39,011 nt of DNA from Oscillospiraceae bacterium. Lineage in GTDB: Bacteria > Bacillota > Clostridia > Oscillospirales > Ruminococcaceae. The stretch covers positions 1-39,011 of the forward strand of contig JAFXIC010000043.1 in the NCBI GenBank assembly GCA_017533485.1, given 5' to 3'. Made by a program: the position numbers and the translations under genes. Positions 719 through 14,561 of this stretch are shown in pieces (positions within the stretch are counted from its first letter, which is position 1; each line of letters starts with the position of its first letter). The notes under the pieces are model-generated. The model was not told the DNA's origin and ran no database searches. It was given only the letters and a program-made list of their open reading frames with translations.

Positions 719-976
719 ATGACAGATAAAGAACTACGGAAACTGAAACGTGCAGACCTGCTTGAGATTTTGTTTCACCTGCAAAAAGAACTCGATGAGG
801 TGCGGAGTGAAAACCTGAATCTGAAACAGCAGCTCCAGAACGGTTCCGGCATGATGTTATCCGACGAAAGTATGCAGCAGCTCATTGATGGTGTTGCCGC
901 GGCAATCAGACAACCCGGAAATCCTTCCGGCGGACAAAACGGAAAACAGCCTGCCGGCGGTAAGCGGAGGCGGTAA
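719..976 (+). CDS. Small coiled-coil protein at the head of the pilus operon
   Basis: An 85-residue soluble protein starting MTDKELRKLKRADLLEIL. Residues 12-42 have the heptad-like L/E/N pattern of a coiled coil, and the tail is Gly/Pro/Lys/Arg-rich. Short proteins with this 'LRKLKRADLLEIL' opening commonly precede signal peptidase and sortase-substrate genes in gut Clostridia; their function is not known. I chose ATG 719 because AAGGAG lies at 701-706 and the conserved-looking sequence begins there. An in-frame ATG at 635 would add 28 residues but has no ribosome site; it lies where the mRNA itself is predicted to begin. The stop is 4 bases from the next start, so the two genes are translationally coupled. 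Confidence 0.75.
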   Translation: MTDKELRKLKRADLLEILFHLQKELDEVRSENLNLKQQLQNGSGMMLSDESMQQLIDGVAAAIRQPGNPSGGQNGKQPAGGKRRR

Positions 977-980
977 GCGT

Positions 981-1562
981 ATGACAGAACAACAGCTTCG
1001 CGATTTGCCGACCGCCGCACAGTATGCACAGGAAATGAAACGGCTGCGGTACCGGAAAGACTTCGCAAAGATGCTGAGAAGTACAGTCAGTTCCTTGCTT
1101 GTCGTTGCCGCAATCGCAGTTTTGATTTCCATGCTGTTTCTGCCGGTACTTCGTGTGACGGGCACCAGCATGACGCCGACCTTACAGGAAAATGAATTTG
1201 TGATATGCAGCGAATGGAGTAATTTCGACTGCGGAGATATCATCGCATTTCATTTCAACAACAAGATTCTTTTGAAGCGTGTCATCGGCACAGCAGGCGA
1301 TTGGATCGAAATTACGGAAGACGGCACAGTCTATGTGAACGGAGAAGAAATCGAAGAACCGTATATCGACCAGAAATCGCTTGGCCAGTGTGATATGGAG
1401 TTTCCGTATCAGGTTCCGGAGAACCGTGTGTTCGTCATGGGAGATCATCGTGAAACATCGGTGGACAGCCGTGTTTCAACGGTTGGCTGTATCGCAGACG
1501 AATACATTATCGGAAAAGTATTCCTGCGCGTATGGCCCTGGGAAACGATCAGCACGCTCTGA
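981..1562 (+). CDS. lepB: Signal peptidase I dedicated to the pilus locus
   Basis: A 193-residue serine/lysine leader peptidase of the S26 family. One membrane segment (about residues 36-56) anchors the protein with the catalytic domain outside. Box B is GTSMTPTL with nucleophile Ser63. Box D is LLKRVIGTAGD with general base Lys99. Box E is VMGDHRETSVDSR (152-164). All catalytic elements are intact. It probably trims the signal peptides of the adhesin and pilins encoded next to it, as locus-specific peptidases do in other Gram-positive pilus islands; this role is inferred from position. The start at 981 has GGAGG at 966-970. Upstream in-frame ATG codons would overlap the preceding gene and are unlikely. 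Confidence 0.9.
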   Translation: MTEQQLRDLPTAAQYAQEMKRLRYRKDFAKMLRSTVSSLLVVAAIAVLISMLFLPVLRVTGTSMTPTLQENEFVICSEWSNFDCGDIIAFHFNNKILLKRVIGTAGDWIEITEDGTVYVNGEEIEEPYIDQKSLGQCDMEFPYQVPENRVFVMGDHRETSVDSRVSTVGCIADEYIIGKVFLRVWPWETISTL

Positions 1563-1608: not shown

Positions 1609-4600
1609 GTGAAAGAATTACAATCGACAGTTAAGAGCTATATCTTAAAAAATATACGGGCAAAACGTTACATGGCAGTGCTGGTTGCGCTATCACTCAT
1701 CGTAACTTTTGCGGTGCCCTATATTTTAACCCAGCCCGCAGCCAGCTGGACGGGAGACGGTTCTTTCTGCTCCATGCAAGAGCATACGCATTCCGATGCG
1801 TGTATTGATATGAATACACCATCCTGCGGACAAACGGAACATGAGCATTCTCCATATGTAGATGAATCCAATAAAGGCTGTTATACAAAGCAGAATTGTT
1901 GGAAATCTATCCATACGCATACCTTGACTTGCTTTCAGAATGCAGAACGTCCGAATTGGTGCTCGCTTCCGAATCATACGCATCAAGGAGATTGCAAGTA
2001 TACAAAGCTTTGTCCGTATGACCCGAATCATGTTCACAATAATGGATGTTACAATTGTATCATACCGGAACATCTGCATACTTCATGTGGGAAAAAATGT
2101 GGATTAGGCGATGCACACCAGCATGATCAAAATAGTTGCTGCAGCATTACGCCTCACTTGCATAGCTGGAATAATTGTTATTGTGCGGATACCACAGAAG
2201 GTCATCAGCATAGCGCACAGTGTTGTCAGCTTCCACAGCATCAGCATGATTACAGCAGCTGTAATTTTGATAGCTGTACGTTGGACGATAATCATACACA
2301 TACAGATGATTGTTACTACTGCGGTCAAGTGGGACACTCTCACGCTGATTCCAACTGCGAGCTGAAATGTACGATCGCAGATCCACATGAATGTAAGCTG
2401 GATATCAACGGCGACGGCAGCTGCCATACCGCTTACTGTGATAAGGAAACGCATACTGCTGAGTGTTTCTCTTGTGGAAGTGTTGAGCATACACATTCCG
2501 TAACGTGTTATGACCCCGGTCAGGCAACTTGTGGACAGGAACATCATCCTGCTCATACCCAAGAATGCTATACTCTGGAAGACGGACATCAGGAGCATAA
2601 GCATGAAGCCGGCTGTTACCAAACCCGAATTTGCGGCCTGGAAGAACATACCCACGGTTCCGGCTGTCTGATCAATACCAACGGCAGCAATATCGAACTC
2701 ATCAAGCTTTTGGTCGGTGCAAATATTATCGGTGACGGCGCAAACGAAGATATCCAGAAGCTCTGGGGTATTACTCGTGAGCAGGGTATAGAATTGCAGG
2801 GAATCTTCAACAACTGCGCGGATGATGCCGAAAGAACCGAAAAGCTTCAGGAATACTGTTCGAGCAAAGGTATTGACCTAACGCTTGCTCAGGTCATCCA
2901 AAACGCGGATGAAAACTTCCTCCTCGGTATTGCATCCCGATTCTGTGTCTTTGTAGAAGATTACTACCAGCCCAGCGATTCTGACGCGGAAGGCCGTGTC
3001 GCAGTCGGCGGTGACTTTATTGTCGATGCGAACTTTGCATACCAAATCGGTAAAGGTCCTTATATGACAACCGATTCGCTCGAAAGCAAGATGAATAACA
3101 TCGGATTCGCTTACCTGATCTTAGGCGGCGCAGTCACAAAAGGCGGTTTAGGTGATGAGCGAAACGATTCCGGGAATATTTATAAGCTTGGAAATGAAAT
3201 CGGTGTCTTGGAAGAAGCAGCAAGACGTTTTGTTCTGAATCATACGACCGGTGAAGCCGTATCAACCGCAGGCTTGATTCCGCTGGATCGTGTTTACCTC
3301 GCAGAGCTCTTCGATTTTGCAGCCGAATATGCAAAGTTTGAGGATACCTCGAAACGAATCTCTGGTAACCATACGGCAGGCGTCAGTAAGAATGTTACCG
3401 TTGAACTCAATAAAGAGATTCCGTATCAGGTCATTCCTGAGGTGAAGGATTCGAACGGTGTGCTGACCGGATATGAGGTTATCAATAAGAGTTATACTGA
3501 TCCGGAATATAAGACGCTGACGCTGACATATACCGGATCGGCGAATACTTCGTCGGATACGATCTTCTTTAACCTCAGTGAAGGCGATATCGACGGTTTG
3601 GATGAGATTCACTTTATTGGTGTTGGCGATGCAAATGTTGTTATCAATGTACCGGATGGCGGAACGATTAACTTCGGTGATGACGGCAGTACCATCGTAA
3701 CAAAATTCGGAGATTCCGAAATCTCCAAGAAACAAGACATCGTTGATAAAGCAAGCTTTGAAAGTATGTCTTTGGAAGAACAAACTGCAAGACGGAATGA
3801 GATCGCACATAACGAGCACGTTTCCAATAACAGTGAAGCTTCCGAGCGAATTCTTTATAATTTCTATAATGCAAATGAAATTATTCTGAACCGAAATCTG
3901 AACGGAACGCTGCTTGCGCCGAATGCACATATCGACGGCGGACATATCGGTTACGGAACAAATCTCGGTGTGCTGGAAGACGGTAACGGTCACTTGTCCG
4001 GTGCGATGATTGCGAAAAGCTTCCACGGTGCACTGGAAATCGGTTTCCGTCCCTATGCAGGTAATGCGAGTATCGCGGTAACAAGGAATGTGACCGTGAG
4101 AAAGAACTGGGCGAATGTCGAACCGCAGCCGATTGAAGTTACCTTGTACCAGTCGCTTGGTGAGCAGTATAATGTGACTGCTGATACAGTAGAAACTCTG
4201 CTGACTGAGGGAAAAATCACGAAGGTGTCCGAGAGCGACAACATCGTGAATCCCGTCACAATTCAAGCAGATTCCGGAGAGAACGGCTGGGAAAATACCT
4301 GGTATAATCTCCCGCAGTTCCAGACGATGGATGACGGTCAGACACAAACGCCTTACTACTATTATGCGATTGAAACACCAATCGAAAATGCTGACTGGGA
4401 AGTTGACTATCAGAATAATGGTATTTCCAACGGCGTGATTGATGTTACAAACCACAAGAACATTTCCGTTAAGGTTCAGAAGGAATATCTGAATTGGGAC
4501 GGAACTCCCATCGACTTAAAGGATATAAATCCGAAGCCGGTGGTTCAGTTCAAGCTGTACGCATCGACAGAACCTCATACACATGTACAGCCGAATCTCA

Positions 4601-7600
4601 GAAACCTGATTTGTGCAGAAACGCATACGCATACACCGAAGTGCTACGCAGCACATCTGGTGTGTACGGAAACGAGCATGGCGCATAAACACAAACCCTC
4701 CTGCTACGCTTGTCATTACGAATGTGAGTGGTTTGAGCATACGCACAGCGAAGAATGCGGCGATACCTGTACAATCAGAGAGCACACACATAATGAAGCT
4801 TGTATATCCTGTTCGTATCTGCCGGCGGAGGATTCGCTGAAACCGGTGAACAACGAATCCGGAAACAATATCTACACCATCGAGTATGACGCGAGTGGTG
4901 AACTTCCCTTGGATCCGGAAGAAACGCCGATTCTCGGCCCGAATCAGTCTCTCACAGGCGGTGGTTCTTCGAAGACCGCCATGATGACGGAACTTGAAAA
5001 TCTGCCTGCGATTGATGAAAAAGGCAATAAGCTCTATTATTATATTGAAGAGCTGAATGCGGATGGATATGATGTCACATACACTGGAAACGCATGGAAC
5101 GAAAATAGGGATGTGACAATCACCAACAAGCAGAAGTCCATTGAGATTACTGTTGAAAAGAACTGGGTCGGTGTTTCGCCGAGCGATAGGAATCCGGTTC
5201 AGATTCAGATTGAACAGTATATTCAGTCCGAAGATGGTAATATTACCGAAGATCTCGATATGCCGCTGATGTTCAATATCCTTGCGGATAAGGAATATCT
5301 GACCGTCGGCAGCACCGCACAGATCATTCCGGTCAATACCAAGGGCAAGGATGTCACTTACGAATCCACCAACGAGGCGGTTGCAACCGTTGACGAAAAT
5401 GGTGTGATTACGGGCGTCAGCAATGGTAAGACGACCATCATCGCAAATTGTGATGGTCAGTTTGCAAGCCTGAAAATGGAGGTTGCAGTCCTTTATCCGA
5501 AGGATGTCCTGAGCAATGTTGTCACGTTGGATTCTTCCAAGGTTTTGGATTCGTTTACATTAAAGTTTACGGATGTGATGCTGGATAAATTAAAGCAAAT
5601 GTGGGAGAATGATCCAGACAGCGATAACGACGGACGTGGACAGTATTTCCAGAACACACCGATTGTTCTCAACTTAAATGGTTCGGAAGTCAAGTTCGGT
5701 CTGAAGTACAAGGATTCACAGTGGTATTTTAATATGTGGTATTCGAATATCAATGGCAAAATTTATGATGATGCTACTGTGGATCACCTGATCGAAAACG
5801 GAAATCTGGTAATTGATCAGACATTTCTGCCTAATGATTTTAAGTGTGGAAATGTTCAGATTACCTCGAATCTGGTCGATCTGATTGCGTATCCGGAATG
5901 GACTTACGCATCCGAACAGTCCGCGCTCCAGAAAACTATGAGCCGAGCGGCAATGTACCGCAGTCTTCTGAGAAATATCACTTCCGAGGATGTCAAGCTG
6001 AAAATTAAGAATGTTAATTTTGCAACGCTGAGTCTTGGCCCAGGAAATAACTGGACACAGACGCTGGAAGTTCCGGTGGCTGACTTCTACGGAAATCCAT
6101 ATTACTATTCCGCAAAAGAAACCTCTGTACCCGATGGTTTTGTTGTAAAATACTACTTCGAGGATGACGATGATAAGTTCCAGACATTTATCAGTGCCGT
6201 AAATCCCGGAAAAGCAGAGATTACGGTCACCAACTCGAAGAAAGGCAGCTTCCCTGTCGAAAAGAAATGGGGCGATTCTGAGGACCATACCAATGATAAG
6301 GTTCGGATTAACCTCTATAAGGCGGGTACCGCGGACAGTACTGATGAAAATCTGAAATATGTCAAGCAGCTGGAGTTGTCCATAAGAAACAGCTGGAATA
6401 GTCAGTTCGATGATTTGCCCGCAACAGAAAAAGATGGCTCCGTTATCTATTATTATATCAGAGAAATCGAAATTTCCTTGGATGGCGGTGAATTTGTACC
6501 TGTCGAGAATACGGAATACCATCCGGAATATAATATCAACGGTTTGCCGTTGTCCGGAATCTCAGCAGATGCAGTCTTTACAGTCACCAACAACAGAACT
6601 TATCCGGAAAAACCGCTGTCGCTGACAGTCAATAAGGTTTGGCACGGTCAGGCGTCTGACAGTATTCGTTTCACCTTGAAACAGTACAGAAAAGCGCTGA
6701 ACGAAGAAAGCTATTCCCCGGTGGAAGAATATAGCAGTCAGACCTATGAATTGTCCGCAGCAAACGACTGGACCATAACGATTGATGATCTGGTCGGCCA
6801 GAGCACAGACGGCGCGGTTTATAAGTATGAGGTTGTGGAAGAAGCAATCAGCGGTTATCGTACTGCATATACGCAGGGCGCACCGAATTATGATGACTGG
6901 ACACAGTCCGCTACGATCACAAATACCAAGTACTTTAACCTGAAAGTATTAAAGAAATGGATTGACCGTACAAACAATGGGCACAACGGCGACTCGGTAT
7001 TCTTCAAGATCTTCCGTTCGGTCACAAAGCCCGATCGGGATGACGTCAATCTCTACGAGGCATTAACCATTACACCCGATGCACCGATCAATATGATCTG
7101 GGGCGAGAACAGCATACTTTACGTGAATAAGCAAGTGTCTGTCAAGGGTGAATATGACACCGATGTGATTGATGTGAACATCAGCGAAACACCCAACGAA
7201 AACGGCAGGTACAGCGTCCAAGTCTTTGGTAAGAAAGCCGGTGAAACACAGCTGACACTGACAGACGGACTGCTGGAACGTACTGTTTCTGTTACAATCG
7301 AAAATCCTGAGATGGTGATTGTCTTGCCTGAGGGTGAAGACGCAAGCATTCAGTCTCATGATGAGCTGCAGCTTCGCGTTGAGGATGTGAGCGGAAACGA
7401 ACTTCGCGACATCAGATTCACTTCGTCTGATACAAAGATTGTTACAGTCGATGCGGATGGAAAGGTAACGGGCGGAACGACTTCCGGTACCGCAACCATC
7501 ACAGCAAAGAAAGAAGGCTATAAGGATGCAACCATAGCGATTTCGGTTGGCTTGCGCAGCATGACCGTGAAAGACAGCAAAGGCAATACGGGCGAGATGA

Positions 7601-10020
7601 CGCTGACAACCGGCGATACGGAAACCCTGGCGGCATATTTCGGCAGTGAGGAGCTTGATGGCGTAACCTTTACTTCCAGTGAATCGACTGTCGTAAGTGT
7701 CGATGGAAACACCATCACAGCCGGTGTTCCGGGTACCGCAACCATTACCGCAACCAAGCCCGGATATGCTCCGGTTACCATTCAGGTAACGGTTCAGGAA
7801 ATTCCGTTTGTGATTATTCGCACGGATACCGGAGAAACGGTTCCGGCTGGTTCGACCGTAGAGGTTATGCAAGGTCAGGAGATTACATTCACATCGTCGA
7901 GAAAAATTAGCAGTGCTCGATGTCATTGGACGGAACTCATGCAGTGCACGGAGCTTACTGAAAACAGCGCGACTTTCGTAGCTTCCACGTATCATACGGG
8001 CAACAACACCATGGAATTCGTAGACGCGAACAATGAAAATAATAAATATTTATTTAGTATTAACGTTGTTACAAGACCTTTGAAATTCACGTATAACAAT
8101 ACAGATTATTGGACGAATTCTGAAACGGTTGTTGAGATTCCGCTAAACCAAGAAGTTGTCTTTGAATTTGCTGATGATATTAGAAATCCGAATGTATCGG
8201 ATGGTCAGATAGTTGAAGTGAGTCAAGACAATAGACGTTTGAAAGTAAAAGGTAAATCTGTAAACGGAACTGCTACGATACAGCTGAACGATCAAAAGCA
8301 CGCAATCAAGATTAAAGTTGTTGAGAGCAGCAGCGGCGGCGAAGAACCCGAAACCCCGTCCGATATGACCTTAACTTACAACGGAACGACCTATCAAAAG
8401 GACAATCAGAACAATCCGATTGTGATTACTCAGGGTCAGACGATTTATCTGAATGCTTCAACCAACATTTCGAATGATAACGGTGTACGTACAGATTCAG
8501 GTAATATTTCGGTGCAACGAAACAGCGATACACAGATTCAGGTTATCGGTAATTCTTCGACGAATGGTGGAACGGTATCGTTTACGGTGAAGAGCCAGAA
8601 CAACAACGAGTATACCTACTACGTCAAGGTAGAGCCGGAAAACTTCAAGTTGTCTATGGATGATGGCACGGAATATACTCCGGGTTCTACAATTACCATT
8701 AACAAGGATCAGACGATTTATCTGAATGCTTCGCCCGGAATTTCCACTGTAAACGAAAATGTAAACGAGATTACGGTGCAGAAAGAGCATGATACACGTA
8801 TGTGGATCAAGGGCGAATCCTCGACCGGAGATAATACAGTATCGTTTACGGTGAAGAGCCAGAACAACAACGAGTATACCTACTACATCAAGGTTGTGGA
8901 CAACACACCGGAAACCGAAAACTTCTACTTTACAGTAAACGGCACAAACTATTATCCGAACGGTGAAGCGATTACCGTAACAGCCGGCAGCTCAATTACC
9001 TTGAATTCGAACATTGGCTTCTATAATCCACAAGTACTGAATGACGCAAATGATAAGATTTCGGTATCTTCGAATGGAAACCAATTAACAGTTTCCGGTA
9101 ATGCTGCAACAGATGGCGATGAGCAATTCCAAGTTACAAGCCAAAACTCGAATACATCGTATGTGTTTAATGTAAAGGTTGAATCCGCTTCTTCCGGTGG
9201 CGGTGGAGAATCCGGCGAGAATGAAGTGCTTGTTAATAAAGTGTTGGATTCTGGCGGTGCTGGATTTAAGTTCGATGTTGATCCATCAAAACAAGTATCA
9301 ACAGTTGTTGTGACATTGACTGGAACCCAAGGAAATAAAAATAATATCCGAGTCGTAATGTCAAACGGAAAAGAGTTTTGGATTAATAATGTACAGTATT
9401 CTAGTGGAACGGCAACATTCACGATCCCACCGTATGAATCAATTCCAAGTGGGATTGATTCAATGACAATATACAATAATGATGGCGGGTCTTTTACTAT
9501 TGTAAGTTACAAAATTAACTATGCATCCACCTCCTACTCCCTCCGTTCGATGAGCAGTCTGGTACGCTCGATGCGAAGCAGCACACCGGTTGAAAGTTCT
9601 GTGGTATTCACAGATCCCGTAAACGGAATCGCAGCTTCGAATGTGATAAAGCTTTCCGCAGCAAATGATTGGGCGTTTGACGCGACCAATCTCCCTGCAA
9701 CCGATGCATCCGGAAATAAATATTATTACTGGGTCGTTGAATATGCGGATGAAGCCTGCACAACCGAGCAGATCAGAGGCTACACAACCAATTATATCTT
9801 CCAGGACGGCGACGCAAGCGATGCAGTGATTGATACCGAGAATCTCGGAAGCGATCCGACTGTCATCCTCTGCAACGTCGAAAAGGAACAAACCGCAGAA
9901 ATGCCCTCTACCGGTGGCAGAGGAACAGCTGCAAACACCTTTGCCGGAATGGCAATCATGGCGGGAAGCGCCGCCGGATATTTTGTACTGAAGCGTCGGA
10001 GGCACCGTCGCTCGGCATAA
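1609..10020 (+). CDS. Giant multi-domain LPXTG-type adhesin (putative pilus tip protein)
   Basis: 2803 residues, GTG start with a strong AGAGGAGG site. Order: membrane/signal segment (about 20-42); Cys/His-rich array (about 48-361) of some 18 C-x(n)-H-x-H-x(n)-C units; choice-of-anchor A adhesin domain (about 433-819, begins near VAVGGDFIVDANFAY); then six Cna_B-type beta domains to about residue 2760. Cna_B 2 holds a second Cys/His cluster (985-1069). Cna_B 3 holds a Big_2 Ig-like domain plus an unknown module (about 1220-1470). Cna_B 6 is split by about 840 residues with Ig-like domains, about five 90-residue repeats and a further beta-rich module. The C terminus is a sortase signal: MPSTGG, hydrophobic helix, KRRRHRR tail. 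The protein should be exported, cut and linked to pilin or wall. A tip role is inferred from size and gene order; the ligand is unknown. Confidence 0.9.
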   Translation: MKELQSTVKSYILKNIRAKRYMAVLVALSLIVTFAVPYILTQPAASWTGDGSFCSMQEHTHSDACIDMNTPSCGQTEHEHSPYVDESNKGCYTKQNCWKSIHTHTLTCFQNAERPNWCSLPNHTHQGDCKYTKLCPYDPNHVHNNGCYNCIIPEHLHTSCGKKCGLGDAHQHDQNSCCSITPHLHSWNNCYCADTTEGHQHSAQCCQLPQHQHDYSSCNFDSCTLDDNHTHTDDCYYCGQVGHSHADSNCELKCTIADPHECKLDINGDGSCHTAYCDKETHTAECFSCGSVEHTHSVTCYDPGQATCGQEHHPAHTQECYTLEDGHQEHKHEAGCYQTRICGLEEHTHGSGCLINTNGSNIELIKLLVGANIIGDGANEDIQKLWGITREQGIELQGIFNNCADDAERTEKLQEYCSSKGIDLTLAQVIQNADENFLLGIASRFCVFVEDYYQPSDSDAEGRVAVGGDFIVDANFAYQIGKGPYMTTDSLESKMNNIGFAYLILGGAVTKGGLGDERNDSGNIYKLGNEIGVLEEAARRFVLNHTTGEAVSTAGLIPLDRVYLAELFDFAAEYAKFEDTSKRISGNHTAGVSKNVTVELNKEIPYQVIPEVKDSNGVLTGYEVINKSYTDPEYKTLTLTYTGSANTSSDTIFFNLSEGDIDGLDEIHFIGVGDANVVINVPDGGTINFGDDGSTIVTKFGDSEISKKQDIVDKASFESMSLEEQTARRNEIAHNEHVSNNSEASERILYNFYNANEIILNRNLNGTLLAPNAHIDGGHIGYGTNLGVLEDGNGHLSGAMIAKSFHGALEIGFRPYAGNASIAVTRNVTVRKNWANVEPQPIEVTLYQSLGEQYNVTADTVETLLTEGKITKVSESDNIVNPVTIQADSGENGWENTWYNLPQFQTMDDGQTQTPYYYYAIETPIENADWEVDYQNNGISNGVIDVTNHKNISVKVQKEYLNWDGTPIDLKDINPKPVVQFKLYASTEPHTHVQPNLRNLICAETHTHTPKCYAAHLVCTETSMAHKHKPSCYACHYECEWFEHTHSEECGDTCTIREHTHNEACISCSYLPAEDSLKPVNNESGNNIYTIEYDASGELPLDPEETPILGPNQSLTGGGSSKTAMMTELENLPAIDEKGNKLYYYIEELNADGYDVTYTGNAWNENRDVTITNKQKSIEITVEKNWVGVSPSDRNPVQIQIEQYIQSEDGNITEDLDMPLMFNILADKEYLTVGSTAQIIPVNTKGKDVTYESTNEAVATVDENGVITGVSNGKTTIIANCDGQFASLKMEVAVLYPKDVLSNVVTLDSSKVLDSFTLKFTDVMLDKLKQMWENDPDSDNDGRGQYFQNTPIVLNLNGSEVKFGLKYKDSQWYFNMWYSNINGKIYDDATVDHLIENGNLVIDQTFLPNDFKCGNVQITSNLVDLIAYPEWTYASEQSALQKTMSRAAMYRSLLRNITSEDVKLKIKNVNFATLSLGPGNNWTQTLEVPVADFYGNPYYYSAKETSVPDGFVVKYYFEDDDDKFQTFISAVNPGKAEITVTNSKKGSFPVEKKWGDSEDHTNDKVRINLYKAGTADSTDENLKYVKQLELSIRNSWNSQFDDLPATEKDGSVIYYYIREIEISLDGGEFVPVENTEYHPEYNINGLPLSGISADAVFTVTNNRTYPEKPLSLTVNKVWHGQASDSIRFTLKQYRKALNEESYSPVEEYSSQTYELSAANDWTITIDDLVGQSTDGAVYKYEVVEEAISGYRTAYTQGAPNYDDWTQSATITNTKYFNLKVLKKWIDRTNNGHNGDSVFFKIFRSVTKPDRDDVNLYEALTITPDAPINMIWGENSILYVNKQVSVKGEYDTDVIDVNISETPNENGRYSVQVFGKKAGETQLTLTDGLLERTVSVTIENPEMVIVLPEGEDASIQSHDELQLRVEDVSGNELRDIRFTSSDTKIVTVDADGKVTGGTTSGTATITAKKEGYKDATIAISVGLRSMTVKDSKGNTGEMTLTTGDTETLAAYFGSEELDGVTFTSSESTVVSVDGNTITAGVPGTATITATKPGYAPVTIQVTVQEIPFVIIRTDTGETVPAGSTVEVMQGQEITFTSSRKISSARCHWTELMQCTELTENSATFVASTYHTGNNTMEFVDANNENNKYLFSINVVTRPLKFTYNNTDYWTNSETVVEIPLNQEVVFEFADDIRNPNVSDGQIVEVSQDNRRLKVKGKSVNGTATIQLNDQKHAIKIKVVESSSGGEEPETPSDMTLTYNGTTYQKDNQNNPIVITQGQTIYLNASTNISNDNGVRTDSGNISVQRNSDTQIQVIGNSSTNGGTVSFTVKSQNNNEYTYYVKVEPENFKLSMDDGTEYTPGSTITINKDQTIYLNASPGISTVNENVNEITVQKEHDTRMWIKGESSTGDNTVSFTVKSQNNNEYTYYIKVVDNTPETENFYFTVNGTNYYPNGEAITVTAGSSITLNSNIGFYNPQVLNDANDKISVSSNGNQLTVSGNAATDGDEQFQVTSQNSNTSYVFNVKVESASSGGGGESGENEVLVNKVLDSGGAGFKFDVDPSKQVSTVVVTLTGTQGNKNNIRVVMSNGKEFWINNVQYSSGTATFTIPPYESIPSGIDSMTIYNNDGGSFTIVSYKINYASTSYSLRSMSSLVRSMRSSTPVESSVVFTDPVNGIAASNVIKLSAANDWAFDATNLPATDASGNKYYYWVVEYADEACTTEQIRGYTTNYIFQDGDASDAVIDTENLGSDPTVILCNVEKEQTAEMPSTGGRGTAANTFAGMAIMAGSAAGYFVLKRRRHRRSA
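1750..2690 (+). repeat. Array of about 18 C-x(n)-H-x-H-x(n)-C units in the adhesin
   Basis: Residues 48-361 of the adhesin repeat the pattern Cys, 3-5 residues, His-x-His, 3-4 residues, Cys (often Cys-Tyr); examples are EHTHSDAC, IHTHTLTC, NHTHQGDC, EHTHSVTCY and EHKHEAGCY. The spacing between units is irregular and the DNA is diverged, so the array is old at nucleotide level. Two Cys and two His per unit would suit a tetrahedral metal site; metal binding is inferred. Related 'HTHT..CY' repeats are familiar in Cna_B proteins of gut Firmicutes, but I know of no assigned function. Confidence 0.85.
4561..4815 (+). repeat. Second, shorter Cys/His cluster inside a Cna_B domain
   Basis: Residues about 985-1069 hold four to five more units (ETHTHTPKCY, AHKHKPSCYAC, EHTHSEECGDTC, EHTHNEAC). 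They sit in the loop after the strand FKLYAS of the second Cna_B domain, whose second half resumes near residue 1070 and ends with ELNADGYDVTYTGN. Confidence 0.8.
7795..9182 (+). repeat. Five degenerate ~90-residue repeats in the adhesin
   Basis: Units begin near 7795, 8083, 8359, 8640 and 8920. Each has a hydrophobic start with an Asn/Tyr-Gly turn, a central 'I.I..GQTIYLN' strand and a closing 'YxxxVKV' strand, suggesting a string of small beta sandwiches acting as a stalk. Units 3 and 4 are the most alike. Confidence 0.7.
8575..8886 (+). repeat. Near-identical direct DNA repeat within the adhesin stalk
   Basis: The 48 bases at 8575-8622 recur exactly at 8839-8886 (offset 264 bp, 88 codons). 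A shorter identical stretch lies at 8436-8459 and 8709-8732. This is a recent in-frame duplication or gene conversion between repeat units. Confidence 0.85.
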
Positions 10021-10117: not shown

Positions 10118-11869
10118 ATGAAAAAGACTAGAACTATGAAGAAGGTTGCTTCTATCGCGACCGCAGCTCTGATGACCGCTTGCCTCGCAGTGCCGATGGC
10201 TGTTTCCGCTGCTACTGCTGAAACTGGTGGTTTAACTATTAGTTTCAACACGCAAGATGAGACCGACAAGGGTATCCATAAATTTGAAGCATATCAGATT
10301 TTTAGTGGAACCATGAGTGGCGGTGTTTTAACCGAGATTAACTGGGGTGATGCCGTTTCTGGTGTGAGTGATTCTATCTTAACTGCACTGAAAGCTTCTA
10401 CCACATTGGGTGATCTCTTCAAAAATTGTGAAACTGCTGAAGATGTAGCAAAAGTTCTGGGTGGTACAAAGACCGAGACCATTGAAGGAGTCGAGCAAAC
10501 TAGTGCAGTTTTTGAAGATGATGCTGCACTTGCTCAGGAAGTTGCTAAAATAATTGGTAATGCTATCAATGCAAATGCTGGCGCAGTAACGTCAGGTCAG
10601 TTTAATGCTGCAACTGACACTACCCCGGCATCTATCTCGAAGCTTCCTGCTGGTTATTACTTGATTCAGGATGTAGATGGTTCTCCGAGCTATGAAGATG
10701 GCGCTGATAATAGCGGTGCAAAGACACGGTATATCTTGAAGCTTACGGCAGAAAATGCGCAGGTGGAAATTAAATCGGCAGCACCGACTGTTGATAAGCA
10801 GGTATTAGATGAGGTAGCTGATGCCGAGGAAGGACATGAGGAAGGCTGGGGCGAAACTGCTGACCATGCAATCAATGAAACATTCCAATTCAAATTAATC
10901 GCAACGATTCCTGCAAATTCAGATTTGGCTGCCTACAACGCTTATAAGCTTATCTTCTCTGATGTTATGTCTGAGGGCGTGTCTTTCGAATCTGTCGAAA
11001 GTGTTGCTGTAGCGGGTTACACAGGAGATGTTGCTTACACGTTGTCGGATAATGTTAATAGTCTTGATGATGGCAAAACATTTGATGGAGACGGATCTAC
11101 TGCATGGACTTTGACGATTGCAGATCTTTTGGACTATGATAATAATCTGACTGATGGTGCAACTGTTGAAATCATTTATAATGCTCACCTGAATACAGAT
11201 GCTTATGTAAATGATGCTAGTGGTGATACCACAAATGCGAATACCGTTAAGCTGAATTACTCCAACAATCCTTATTGGGATGGAACCGTAGGTTCTGATA
11301 GTGATGAGACCGGCGAAACCAAAGAAGATACGGTATGGGTATTTACATATCAGATCAATAACACAAAGGTTGATGCAAGCAACAACAATGCTCCGTTGGC
11401 AGGCGTAAAATTTGGACTGTATGATTCCACAGGAAATAATCGTATCGCTTTGGCATATGATAACGAGCTGAAAGCTTATCGTCTTGCTGTAGATGACGAA
11501 CCCGGCGTGGATATGGAATCCACACTCAATGCCGATGAATCCGCAGCGGTATTCAATATTGTTGGTCTCGATGTCGGTACATATGTATTGAAGGAAATTC
11601 AGCCCTTGGCTGGTTATAACAGATGCCCTGATACAACGATCACGATTACTGCAAAGCATATCGAAGATGCAGATGAAGCGGGTGCAACTGTCGATCTTAC
11701 CGGTAGCCAGAATATGAGCAACGAGATTCAGAACAAGAAGGGCACCACGCTCCCCGGCACCGGTGGTATCGGTACAACGCTGTTCTACCTGATCGGTGGT
11801 ACAATGTTCGCAGGTTCGGGCGTATACCTGATCTCGAAGAAGCGCATGAAGAATAAGGAAGAGCAGTAA
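10118..11869 (+). CDS. Major pilin, SpaA-type, LPGTG-anchored
   Basis: 583 residues with a classical signal peptide (basic start, hydrophobic 10-30, AMA/VSA-like cleavage around residue 31). A pilin-like motif, PTVDK with Lys227, is the probable nucleophile for sortase polymerisation. The C-terminal Cna_B domain (about 410-540) has the E-box LKEIQPLAGY (491-500, Glu493), typical of intramolecular Lys-Asn isopeptide bonds. The sorting signal LPGTGG (545-550) is followed by a hydrophobic segment and KKRMKNK tail. This is the expected plan of a shaft subunit (N-terminal, middle fimbrial and C-terminal Cna_B domains). A very good ribosome site (AAAGGAG, 8 bases from the start) and the flanking hairpins fit high expression. 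It lies between the adhesin and the class C sortase. Confidence 0.92.
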   Translation: MKKTRTMKKVASIATAALMTACLAVPMAVSAATAETGGLTISFNTQDETDKGIHKFEAYQIFSGTMSGGVLTEINWGDAVSGVSDSILTALKASTTLGDLFKNCETAEDVAKVLGGTKTETIEGVEQTSAVFEDDAALAQEVAKIIGNAINANAGAVTSGQFNAATDTTPASISKLPAGYYLIQDVDGSPSYEDGADNSGAKTRYILKLTAENAQVEIKSAAPTVDKQVLDEVADAEEGHEEGWGETADHAINETFQFKLIATIPANSDLAAYNAYKLIFSDVMSEGVSFESVESVAVAGYTGDVAYTLSDNVNSLDDGKTFDGDGSTAWTLTIADLLDYDNNLTDGATVEIIYNAHLNTDAYVNDASGDTTNANTVKLNYSNNPYWDGTVGSDSDETGETKEDTVWVFTYQINNTKVDASNNNAPLAGVKFGLYDSTGNNRIALAYDNELKAYRLAVDDEPGVDMESTLNADESAAVFNIVGLDVGTYVLKEIQPLAGYNRCPDTTITITAKHIEDADEAGATVDLTGSQNMSNEIQNKKGTTLPGTGGIGTTLFYLIGGTMFAGSGVYLISKKRMKNKEEQ

Positions 11870-11936: not shown

Positions 11937-11965
11937 GCCACCGGCGGTTTCGCGCCGTCGGTGGC
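11937..11965 (+). other. Strong intercistronic hairpin after the major pilin gene
   Basis: GCCACCGGCGG (11937-11947) pairs with CCGTCGGTGGC (11955-11965), one G-U pair, 7-base loop, no U-tract after it. It ends 5 bases before the ribosome site of the sortase gene. A weaker 7-bp hairpin (CATCAAA/TTTGATG, 11892-11917) lies just upstream. Together they may protect the 3' end of the pilin mRNA. Confidence 0.7.
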
Positions 11966-11981
11966 CATTAGGGAGGGTCCC

Positions 11982-12839
11982 ATGAGAAACAAATCGAGTC
12001 TTTACACTACAATCTTCTTTACAATTGTTCTGCTTGTGGGTCTCTCCGTGATGCTTTACCCGATAGTAAGTAACTGGTGGAATGAACGCGTGCAAAGCCG
12101 TGCGGTCGCAAGCTATAATGATGCAATTGTGCAAATGGATGAGGATAAGACAGCGGAGATACTGGACGCCGCACATGCATATAATCGAAAGATCGCGAAT
12201 CTGAACGCACCATTTTCGGATTATGTGAAGATTACGGGCTATGATGAGATACTGGATGTTTCCGGCACGGGTATTATGGGCTATATCACCATTCCGGCGA
12301 TTGGTGTTGAGCTTCCGATTTACCACGGCACAAGCGAAGCGGTACTGAATGTAGCGGCAGGCCATTTACAGGGCTCAGCGATTCCGGTCGGCGGCGAGAA
12401 TACACATGCAGTGATATCCGCACACCGCGGACTTCCATCCGCCAAGCTGTTTACGGATCTGGATAAAATGGTTGTGGGCGATGTTTTCACAATCACCATT
12501 TTAGACGAGGTGTATACCTATCAGGTGGAAGAAATCCTGATTGTACAGCCTTATGAAATGAATCGACTTGCAATTATCCCCGACAGCGATTATGTGACAT
12601 TGATGACCTGTACGCCATATGGCGTCAATACCCATCGGCTTCTGCTGCGATCCAAGCGCATTGAAACGATATATGAGCTGGACGTAAAGGTAGTGGCAGA
12701 CGCATTAAAAGTGGATCCGCTGTATGTTGTTCCGCTGATTGCAGCCCCGTTGCTGCTTGCGCTGTTAATCTTCTGGATTTTCGGCGGAAAGCGAAAGAAA
12801 AAGCGGTCGAGTCTGGAGTACATGATTTATCTGAAATAA
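11982..12839 (+). CDS. srtC: Class C sortase (pilin polymerase)
   Basis: 285 residues: N-terminal membrane helix (about 8-30), sortase beta barrel and C-terminal membrane helix (about 246-268) with a basic KRKKK tail, the layout of class C sortases. The active site is complete: His148 in ISAHRGLP, Cys210 in LMTCTPYG and Arg219 in NTHRLLL. It should cut pilin signals at the Thr and join them to the next pilin Lys. The lid that usually reads Asp-Pro-aromatic before the core appears here as Ala76-Pro77-Phe78, so the Asp is replaced. ATG 11982 was chosen because GGGAGG lies at 11971-11976; a start 21 bases upstream would precede this site. The gene ends 17 bases before the basal pilin start. Confidence 0.92.
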   Translation: MRNKSSLYTTIFFTIVLLVGLSVMLYPIVSNWWNERVQSRAVASYNDAIVQMDEDKTAEILDAAHAYNRKIANLNAPFSDYVKITGYDEILDVSGTGIMGYITIPAIGVELPIYHGTSEAVLNVAAGHLQGSAIPVGGENTHAVISAHRGLPSAKLFTDLDKMVVGDVFTITILDEVYTYQVEEILIVQPYEMNRLAIIPDSDYVTLMTCTPYGVNTHRLLLRSKRIETIYELDVKVVADALKVDPLYVVPLIAAPLLLALLIFWIFGGKRKKKRSSLEYMIYLK

Positions 12840-12856
12840 TGAGGAAGGTGATCGTT

Positions 12857-13930
12857 ATGCGCAAACAAACAATCAAGCGAGTCGGCACATTATGTTTATG
12901 TGTCGGTATGCTTCTGACACTGCTTTCCGGATTCTGCATACAGGCATTTGCGGCAGGAAATGAGGGCTCACTGACATTGATCTGTCAGAATGAGGATGAT
13001 ATTCTGGAAGGGCTGAAGTGGGATATATTACGAGTCGGATCCCGCGTTGGCGATAGCTATGTGCTGGAAGGCGAATTCAGTGAAGCGCCTGTGACCATGG
13101 ATGACTTATCCGAGGACGCACTGGTGAAAAAAGCGAAGGTATTAGAAGCCTATGCTGTTGCAAATGAGATCCAACCGCTTGCAAGCGGCGCGACCAATGA
13201 AAAAGGCATTCTGGTGTTTGACAATCTGGAAGAGGGCCTGTATCTTGTCTGGGGTTATAAGCTGACGAAAGGCAATACAACTTATTTTCCTTCGACGATG
13301 TTTGTTGAGATTCACGAAACACACGCCGCGCTTGACTGGAATGCATATCCGAAATATTACATGACCAATTTCTCCACAGAAGAGGAACGTCATGCAGTTA
13401 TGAAAGTATGGCTGAATGAAGACGGGGAACCGATCGACTATTCGACCAGCATTACAGTTGAGATTTACCGGGATCGGGAGCTGTATGATACCGTAGTGCT
13501 TTCGGAGGAAAACGACTGGAAATACTTCTGGACCAGCAAAGGCACCTATGATTGGTTCGTATATGAGGTAGATATTCCGGAGGGCTTTACCGTAGAGTAT
13601 GATGATAATAAAGTCCAGTACCGGATTAAGAATATCTATCATGGTGAAATCACCACAACGACCACAACGGATACGACGGAAACAACGGAAACGACAACCA
13701 CACTTTCCTCTGATACCACATCCACTACAACCACAACAACTACAACGTCCCAAACGACAACCACTACAATCACATCGAAAACAACCGGTACCACAACTCC
13801 GAATCTTCCGCAGACCGGACAGCTCTGGTGGCCGGTATTGGTGCTTGGTGCACTCGGTATGCTCTTTGTAGCGATCGGCTGTCGTATGACACTCATGCGA
13901 AATGATGAACAGGAGTCCAATGAAAAATAA
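12857..13930 (+). CDS. Basal/minor pilin with Thr-rich stalk, LPQTG-anchored
   Basis: 357 residues. Signal peptide 1-33; an N-terminal beta domain ending in WNAYPKYY (161-168), a likely YPK pilin motif with Lys166; a Cna_B domain (about 180-262); a threonine-rich stretch (about 266-313); then LPQTG (317-321), a hydrophobic helix and a short polar tail. The long Thr stalk next to the anchor and the different sorting signal suggest the wall-proximal subunit that ends polymerisation. The start at 12857 follows GAGGAAGGTG; an ATG at 12839 overlapping the sortase stop is in frame but lies before this ribosome site. The gene overlaps the next by 11 bases. Confidence 0.88.
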   Translation: MRKQTIKRVGTLCLCVGMLLTLLSGFCIQAFAAGNEGSLTLICQNEDDILEGLKWDILRVGSRVGDSYVLEGEFSEAPVTMDDLSEDALVKKAKVLEAYAVANEIQPLASGATNEKGILVFDNLEEGLYLVWGYKLTKGNTTYFPSTMFVEIHETHAALDWNAYPKYYMTNFSTEEERHAVMKVWLNEDGEPIDYSTSITVEIYRDRELYDTVVLSEENDWKYFWTSKGTYDWFVYEVDIPEGFTVEYDDNKVQYRIKNIYHGEITTTTTTDTTETTETTTTLSSDTTSTTTTTTTTSQTTTTTITSKTTGTTTPNLPQTGQLWWPVLVLGALGMLFVAIGCRMTLMRNDEQESNEK

Positions 13931-14561
13931 AGGATTGATTATGATTTTGCTTGGGACAGTGCTGCTGCTTGCAGCAGTGTCCCTTGTCATTTACAATATT
14001 TCCGAGGACCGTAATGGCGGGAAATATGCACAGTCTGCATTGACGATTATGCTGGAGGAGATGCCGGAAACGCGGTATGCCACAACCACTGCAACAACTG
14101 CTTACAGTGAGGATCTGTTTGCGGAATATGAAACGACGACGACAACCACGATTGCGGATGATGTTGTGATGATTGAAGATCGTCCGTATATCGGAATGAT
14201 CGAAGTCCCGTCCCAGCAGATTCAGCTTCCGGTTTTACAGGACTGGAATAAAGAATTCCTGCAATATGCGCCATGCCGTTACAGCGGTTCGCCGAAAACG
14301 AATTCACTGGTGCTCGCGGGCCATAATTATACGAAGCATTTCGGAAAGCTGTTTTCTGTAAATGTCGGGGATCCGATTTACTTTACGGATGTCAATGGTC
14401 TGGTCTATCAATATGCGGTAACCTATGTCGAGGTACTGGAGGGCGGCGATATCGAAGGAATGCTCGACCAGGATATGAGTCGTTGGGATCTGACATTATT
14501 TACCTGTACGTTGAGCGGCCAGAGTCGTATGACAGTACGTGCCGAACGCGTGATGACATGA
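13920..14561 (+). CDS. Second sortase of the pilus locus (class D-like)
   Basis: 213 residues: short cytoplasmic start, one membrane helix (about 5-25), a spacer with Thr runs (residues 55-60 and 72-77), then a compact sortase domain. Catalytic residues are His135 (VLAGHNYTKHFG), Cys196 (TLFTCTLSG) and Arg203 (QSRMTVRAER). There is no C-terminal membrane helix, unlike class C. The size and the AGHN and TLFTCT motifs fit a class D-like or related anchoring enzyme; class B is less likely because its extra helices are missing. It probably attaches the finished pilus or the LPQTG basal pilin to the wall. The start at 13920 has AGGAG at 13911-13915 and overlaps the previous gene. Confidence 0.85.
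   Translation: MKNKGLIMILLGTVLLLAAVSLVIYNISEDRNGGKYAQSALTIMLEEMPETRYATTTATTAYSEDLFAEYETTTTTTIADDVVMIEDRPYIGMIEVPSQQIQLPVLQDWNKEFLQYAPCRYSGSPKTNSLVLAGHNYTKHFGKLFSVNVGDPIYFTDVNGLVYQYAVTYVEVLEGGDIEGMLDQDMSRWDLTLFTCTLSGQSRMTVRAERVMT

Follow-up and report, generated by a model that had tools for sequence, protein, structure and literature searches.

Short Metal Sites and Zinc-Associated Surface Proteins

Zinc knuckles, e.g., those of the retroviral CCHC type, span roughly a dozen residues, among which four Cys/His ligands follow one another at a fixed short spacing, and they often occur in tandem. The CHHC repeat considered here belongs to a sortase-type adhesin encoded in a 39,011-nucleotide stretch of DNA from an Oscillospiraceae bacterium (the whole of this stretch is referred to as the window). 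It likewise places four Cys/His ligands at short spacing within about a dozen residues and is arranged in tandem, but it differs from the knuckles in its ligand order (C-HxH-C), its location on a surface protein, the length of its arrays and the presence of cap units in relatives. Metallothioneins possess Cys-rich clusters (CxC, CxxC, CC) devoid of a regular HxH, whereas in the CHHC array His is as frequent as Cys and stands in a fixed HxH, some CC, CxC and CxxC being found between the units of the window protein. The B-repeats of the staphylococcal Aap protein are large G5-type folds that are joined through zinc and contain no small Cys-His units, and the Pht family is characterized by several HxxHxH triads. 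The adhesin contains one HxxHxH (residues 327-332), and its operon encodes a pilin and sortases but no zinc transporter.

According to excerpts from the respective publications, the Pht proteins of streptococci are surface proteins in which zinc-linked His motifs are repeated (PMC3842936), and the B-repeats of Staphylococcus epidermidis Aap are surface-protein repeats with zinc-dependent contacts (PMC9802226); the array shares these general traits and differs from the Pht motifs in being built from Cys2His2 units. The ZnuE, ZnuF and ZnuG proteins of Corynebacterium diphtheriae, as portrayed in an excerpt of PMC12445094, are secreted or located in the cell wall and share a zinc-associated motif of which HxH is a part, and ZnuG carries a sortase signal; the HxD and HxH elements of the motif given there are, however, about 150 residues apart and lack Cys, and the genes belong to a zinc-regulated cluster. 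As regards its overall architecture, the window adhesin resembles the ancillary or tip adhesins of sortase-assembled pili, since it is a large protein with Cna_B domains and a sorting signal whose gene adjoins those for a backbone pilin and a class C sortase. It departs from these proteins through its N-terminal CHHC array and through a gene pair located upstream, which encodes a coiled-coil-like protein and a signal peptidase I.

The array thus resembles short tandem metal sites, placed on a sortase adhesin, and we assign it to no named family. Searches of the window protein against Pfam and NCBIfam at E 0.1 gave no match on either of its two arrays, and no Pfam model exceeded its cut-off when ten array segments of relatives were searched at E 0.01. 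An NCBIfam YD-repeat match in the segment of one relative (L014; 16.4 bits versus a cut-off of 15.8, E 0.0095) contains no significant stretch and was judged spurious. A search of PDB sequences at E 10 found 0 matches, and a second PDB search at E 1 returned two unconvincing matches, namely a designed repeat protein (1.3e-4), the individual stretches of which fail alone, and an acyltransferase (0.39). No description of the repeat was found in the open-licence literature searched by sequence strings, motif spellings and themes; the sole match for the term 'CHHC motif' concerns, as far as the excerpt goes, retroelements.

The Adhesin and Its Operon

The features of the locus are compiled in Table 1. 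Pfam and NCBIfam recognize in the adhesin a pAdhesive_15/choice-of-anchor A domain, four stretches of Cna_B, two of Big_2, and an LPXTG anchor domain. Together, the leader, the adhesin domains, the sorting signal and the sortases of the operon bear out the surface location that had been proposed for the protein in the initial annotation. An anaerobic ribonucleotide reductase gene is also present in the window and fits an anaerobic host.

Table 1. Features of the adhesin locus in the window.
Feature	Coordinates	Strand	Basis
Small coiled-coil-like protein, 85 aa, MTDKELRKLKRADLLEIL..., first cassette gene	719..976	+	Profile matches
Signal peptidase I, directly upstream of the adhesin	981..1562	+	PF10502 5.1e-36, TIGR02227 2.2e-36, over cut-off
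Sortase-type adhesin, GTG start, 2803 aa	1609..10020	+	Translation; Pfam and NCBIfam matches
End of basic n-region and hydrophobic leader, about residues 20-45	1666..1743	+	Sequence; similar leader precedes arrays in relatives
CHHC array 1, residues 54-353, 15 HxH units and 3 partial slots	1768..2667	+	Residue maps, motif count
Degenerate part of array 1, residues 250-286; one His missing or Cys shifted	2356..2466	+	Motif count, by eye
Choice-of-anchor A/ice-binding-like adhesive domain, about residues 439-818	2923..4062	+	Pfam, NCBIfam
CHHC array 2, residues 990-1068, 4 full units and a lone HTH	4576..4812	+	Residue maps, motif count
C-terminal sorting signal: MPSTGG, hydrophobic stretch, basic tail	9895..10017	+	Sequence; TIGR01167 E 5.1e-4, 20.6 bits, cut-off 15.9
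Backbone-type pilin without CHHC units	10118..11869	+	GramPos_pilinBB, RrgB_K2N_iso_D2, SpaA matches
Class C (pilus) sortase	11961..12839	+	NF033745 3.6e-79, over cut-off
Surface-protein-like operon gene without confident family	12839..13930	+	Matches below cut-off only
Second sortase	13902..14561	+	PF04203 2.6e-18; TIGR01076 over cut-off

The scores of the signal peptidase I were computed on the frame 885-1562, and its translation is taken from position 981. The coiled-coil-like protein has no Pfam match at E 0.01 and no NCBIfam match over cut-off; it scores E 1.1e-19 with an alignment (A5) that contains this protein itself, and E 1.2e-14 with an earlier model of array-adjacent coiled-coil genes, which had been started with one out-of-frame junk sequence in addition to a true protein from another contig of the host genome (C55).

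Gene order and size indicate that the adhesin is probably the tip protein of a pilus, and the array is carried by this ancillary protein, of which there would probably be one per pilus. The backbone pilin contains 3 Cys residues, no HxH and no CHHC unit. The notion that the array is multiplied on a pilus, advanced in the initial annotation, consequently finds no support, as the units reside on the large ancillary adhesin.

CHHC Arrays of the Window Protein

Within the 300 residues of array 1, 36 Cys and 37 His were counted, and array 2 contributes 10 Cys and 12 His in 79 residues; the 2424 residues of the adhesin outside both arrays contain 9 Cys (0.37%) and 21 His. The 15 HxH units of array 1 have flanking Cys residues, the distance from the first Cys (C1) to the HxH being x4 to x6 (once x9) and that from the HxH to the second Cys (C2) x2 to x4 (once x10). 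Three partial slots, recognized by eye within residues 250-286 and at residues 308-320, bring the number of slots to 18, with a period of approximately 17 residues. Between clear neighbours, the linkers measure 0-9 residues. In array 2, the lone HTH has no Cys nearby on its N-terminal side. These data agree with the roughly 18 units of the initial annotation, with its second cluster (placed at 4561-4815) and with its total of about 22; the first array, given there as 1750-2690, is present with the span listed in Table 1.

The arrangement is far from what amino acid composition would produce by chance. When the unit motif C-x(3-6)-HxH-x(3-5)-C was scored against shuffles that keep the composition of the respective sequence, array 1 reached 14 (shuffle mean 0.55, maximum 7 in 2000 shuffles) and the whole adhesin 18 (mean 0.0035, maximum 1). 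A tandem repeat at the DNA level was not detected at a minimum score of 30, and the possibility that the units are recent DNA duplications was rejected on this ground. Since seven regular units (five from array 1, two from array 2) share only 37% base identity in their non-ligand codons and 24% identity in their non-ligand residues, the window array looks old, and it appears to have diverged except at its ligands.

Such divergence could also be read as decay, in which case the window array would be a degenerate relic that drifts after having lost most of its consensus residues. Only five of its 20 HxH sites keep the G after the preceding Cys, E precedes His in eight of the 20, array 1 has its three partial slots, and the canonical profile (A2) derived for the repeat does not match the window array at E 1e-6. 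This reading is nevertheless highly improbable in our estimation, because the ligands have been kept in most units in spite of the low identity of the non-ligand codons, which points to selection acting on these residues. Within its degenerate part, array 1 contains the segment LDINGDGS (residues 264-271; nucleotides 2398-2421), which by eye resembles what we take to be a dockerin-type calcium-binding loop.

Distribution of the Repeat among Relatives

The pattern CG..EHTH...C, run over genome contigs from 84,980 species, each represented by a single genome, retrieved at least 120 stretches. Among the matches listed, 111 of 120 specify a protein with a score of at least two units, by a count that allows C1-H distances up to x6 and hence misses x7 units; the later per-protein counts are wider. 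With the addition of 11 loci from searches of the host genome and the family, all of which possess an array, 131 loci were analysed, and 122 of these carry arrays. The array-bearing stretches listed stem nearly all from gut Clostridia (Lachnospiraceae, Oscillospiraceae, Ruminococcus, Blautia, Faecalibacterium), in accordance with the earlier statement that the repeat occurs in related gut bacteria; the exceptions among the matches listed are one Erysipelotrichaceae and one Lentisphaeria bin. Nine of the 120 listed stretches are array-free. Five of them come from other groups (Planctomycetota, Ignavibacteria, Cytophagales, Spongiibacter, Ilumatobacteraceae) and hold zero units or one short chance frame, and four are Clostridia contigs (L024, L082, L086, L109); of these, L082 has a single unit, located in a long frame, and L086 and L109 each have two frames with one unit apiece. 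Two of the 111 stretches counted as array-bearing, with an 80-residue frame on an Acidobacteriaceae contig (L025) and a 252-residue frame (L050), are left with one unit each on a stricter non-overlapping count and look like chance occurrences.

The survey of phylogenetic range that had been called for reveals a modest prevalence: the window array was matched in eight of 197 family genomes at E 1e-3 and the canonical profile in three of 398 phylum genomes at E 1e-6, the host being included in both numbers and its own match to the canonical profile falling on contig C55, off the window array. Array size varies considerably. Among 121 array proteins of relatives listed, some of which are cut by contig ends, 46 have 2-3 HxH units, 58 have five or more, and the largest number is 21. 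Among the relatives listed, Cys makes up 8.85% of the residues inside the array windows and 0.85% outside. A domain scan of 32 hand-picked proteins, out of 35 complete array genes (101 called), detected SpaA in 13, Cna_B in eight, CHAP in five, and VWA and CBM77 in one each.

The host genome encodes a second CHHC protein on contig C55 (L154:6798-11891), which has three units behind a leader of the adhesin's kind, three CBM_4_9 stretches, a Cna_B domain and a sorting-like motif; its gene is likewise preceded by those for a coiled-coil protein and a signal peptidase I. The gene before that protein (L154:3-5228) specifies a subtilase/LRR protein with, by eye, a dockerin-like repeat at its end.

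Conservation of the Ligands

To assess the ligands in relatives, we counted how often each of them is kept when its three partners stand at canonical spacing; the window was excluded, and a single motif unit was dropped from every locus. Among the matches listed, H1 was retained in 250 of 250 cases, H2 in 250 of 251, C2 in 250 of 260, and C1 at x4 in 250 of 478, in a sample that stays biased even with one unit per locus dropped, given that the loci had been fetched via a four-ligand x4 unit. Other consensus positions drift among the relatives listed (G 57%, E 77%, T 44%, Y 53%). The comparatively low value for C1 goes along with variable spacing: of 760 HxH cores among the matches listed (window included, nothing dropped), 386 have C1 at x4, 219 at x7 and the rest at other distances. 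C2 stands at x3 in 719 of these 760 cores, and 21 cores have no Cys within 25 residues. Both His residues are found in 254 C-x10-C spans among the matches listed, neither in 16, and one in a single span. The ligands are hence conserved beyond the other positions, C1 being so at variable spacing. Since H1, H2 and C2 are near-invariant while other positions drift, the constraint is centred on the ligand quartet, a pattern that agrees better with a four-ligand metal site than with a purely disulfide-based one. The invariant HxH could also serve a role unrelated to metal.

The rival idea that the array is a disulfide ladder or redox-responsive module, in which the Cys residues pair within or between units upon contact with oxygen or an oxidant and the His residues are secondary, draws on the even numbers of Cys in arrays 1 and 2 and on the CC, CxC and CxxC sequences between the window units. 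Yet in relatives His is as invariant as Cys, and a disulfide-only role, which would not be expected to keep His, is disfavoured on this account. A search of the host genome (88.3% complete) at E 0.01 found no VKOR, DSBA or Thioredoxin_4 match; other oxidants exist, but this result favours the presence of the Cys residues as thiolates. According to excerpts from a 2025 study, several Clostridia possess DsbA and VKOR enzymes, and DsbB and VKOR are absent from two of the strains used there (PMC12453122). We consider the disulfide ladder distinctly improbable.

Spacing Grammar and a Compact Class of Arrays

Spacing was analysed in 71 runs of four or more units, without dropping any unit, and 44 of these runs were called N-terminal by a hydrophobicity rule. 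In these 44 runs, the first unit has a C1-H distance of x4 or less in every case and the last unit in 37, while 213 of 258 inner units have x5 or more, mostly x7. Perfectly capped runs number 26, compared with a shuffle mean of 2.1, and 0 of 5000 shuffles reached this figure; fetching loci by an x4 unit biases the composition of a run, not the position inside it. Four loci (L046, L118, L119, L123) share both the capped C1-H series 4-7-7-7-7-4 and the recurring linker series 6-8-8-8-6. Because the N-terminal arrays of relatives follow this cap-repeat-cap spacing, we suggest that they may form folded rods with cap units. The type of metal-binding unit envisaged in the initial annotation gains credence from the conservation of the ligands in relatives, whereas the polymer envisaged alongside would, if loose, fit poorly with their capped spacing; the window array itself does not follow that spacing.

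The window array represents a compact variant that the capped grammar does not cover. A general doublet grammar of alternating 4 and 5 spacings was rejected (165 of 557 steps alternate, the shuffle mean is 213, and 2000 of 2000 shuffles reach the observed level), and the window array's own 4/5 alternation is weak, as 141 of 5000 shuffles equal it. The 27 internal or unplaced runs include many in which all distances are x4, and L002, L077, L094 and L129 are among those with short linkers. The internal arrays look like a second repeat class, and this class is the closest to the window array in compactness. In the group comprising L002, L027, L040, L060, L067, L077, L094 and L129, several internal arrays have linkers of 0-4 residues, and several sit behind a stretch resembling VVFWGENADDxEYSY.

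The Coiled-Coil/Signal Peptidase I Cassette and the Gene Neighbourhood

In 85 of 111 array ORFs among the matches listed, the array is positioned directly behind a hydrophobic leader. A signal peptidase I gene lies immediately upstream of 47 of the 77 leader-type array ORFs with sufficient room, versus two of 13 of the rest. Where the 3' end of the array ORF is complete (46 cases), sorting-like motifs are present in 23; for the N-terminal class, the figure is 20 of 29. With the earlier coiled-coil model described above, the order coiled-coil gene, signal peptidase, array was recorded at 41 of the 110 loci that have array ORFs, a set in which many loci are cut. Both upstream genes also occur at eight loci outside this set (L003, L004, L006, L007, L008, L011, L154, L166); neither is found at L164, an internal array with upstream room, and the upstream region is cut at L005, L009, L163 and L165. 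Members of the small coiled-coil family (MTxKELRRLSRxELLExLL...), e.g., the window protein, L030:6478-6930 and L112:5148-5579, adjoin signal peptidase I, and six members scanned had no Pfam or NCBIfam match over cut-off.

A reverse search with the coiled-coil profile A5, whose alignment is clean, found 29 places in 25 of 197 family genomes, 28 of them with a signal peptidase. The next gene is visible at 25 of these 28 places and, by a count that used the earlier model, encodes an array in 16 (two of these from the host); in the other nine it has, by eye, a leader of similar type and no units. The idea that the signal peptidase pairing is specific for arrays was rejected because of these nine genes: the pair tracks the leader type, and the array is a frequent module directly behind the leader. 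Eight array-free homologues of the adhesin core, one from the host and seven from its genus (L153, L155-L161), had no cassette pair within stretches of 10.5-19 kb, and the three N termini read (L153, L155, L160) are ordinary-looking signal peptides. It seems that the array is gained or lost together with the leader and the cassette.

A survey of 111 neighbouring genes, hand-picked from 148 listed (302 called), identified Peptidase_S26 as the commonest family (36 of 111), followed by pilin and sortase domains with six each; a metal transporter was absent from the 25 families listed of 39, which further weakens the loose-polymer reading. This survey also bears on the proposal, modelled on that for the streptococcal Pht proteins, that the array is a surface zinc reservoir feeding ZnuA-type uptake. 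With as many as some 22 potential sites in one molecule of the window protein, five or more units in nearly half of the listed array proteins of relatives, a ZnuA-family gene in the host genome (E 5.7e-57) and the cell-wall zinc proteins of C. diphtheriae, one with a sortase signal (PMC12445094, in excerpt), as a precedent, such a reservoir has some appeal. However, the ZnuA gene is found on a separate contig (C73), no metal transporter accompanies the arrays in the families surveyed, and neither the capped grammar of relatives nor the 2-3 units of many listed array proteins (some being cut by contig ends) points to bulk storage. We therefore view the reservoir as unlikely.

A Possible Zinc-Built Module at the Adhesin N Terminus

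We suggest, with moderate confidence and from comparative sequence data, that the array is a series of tandem metal-binding units with which the adhesin begins and which would serve as a rigid, zinc-locked rod or tip module. In this proposal, each unit, canonically C-x4 or x7-H-x-H-x3-C, would fold round a single Zn2+ ligated by two Cys and two His residues, much as a zinc knuckle makes a fold from a dozen residues, and the chain of tiny zinc folds would stiffen or cap the N-terminal end of the sortase-anchored protein. Zinc is favoured over iron or nickel as the putative metal because the ligand set is Cys2His2. The leader before the array, of the type paired with the dedicated coiled-coil gene and signal peptidase I, would presumably be cleaved. 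A more far-reaching version envisions a hitherto undescribed class of extracellular zinc-built solenoid of 2 to about 20 Cys2His2 sites, capped in many relatives, that would start the adhesins of gut Clostridia and fold on metal after export via the dedicated pair, so that intestinal zinc supply would control adhesin assembly; this version is put forward only tentatively, and we rate it as rather unlikely.

The metal might instead be shared between cells or with a ligand of the host or of fibre, in a kind of metal-bridged adhesion reminiscent of the Aap B-repeats of staphylococci. The probably exposed N-terminal position of the array and the variety of surface domains on array proteins (SpaA, Cna_B, CHAP, VWA, CBM77, CBM_4_9) would suit this mode of action, but the four ligands of a unit, if all bound to one metal, would leave no open site, and we regard it as very unlikely.

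The repeat is thus found in surface proteins of many gut Clostridia, and the libraries searched offer neither a curated family nor a solved structure that credibly matches it. Should the predicted zinc folds be borne out, they would link the metal supply of the gut to commensal adhesion and would make testable why surface proteins otherwise poor in Cys keep many Cys residues at their N termini. The coiled-coil/signal peptidase pair offers a means of predicting the surface proteins that take this route.

Occurrences Outside the Clostridia and in Phage Collections

Carriage of the array by phages was rejected as a candidate, as one IMG/VR scan gave four pattern matches, none of which is a confirmed relative; plasmid carriage was likewise set aside after a plasmid search with the L065 array produced no match. 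The array protein of the Lentisphaeria bin from horse faeces (L067) resides in a non-Bacillota bin, which reflects either transfer or misbinning. An unannotated UNVERIFIED 'Bacteriophage sp.' entry from human faeces (L167; MT835974.1, 3169-13744) contains a coiled-coil gene, a signal peptidase I gene and a gene for a CHHC-array protein in this order, and this cassette is probably bacterial DNA in a phage collection.
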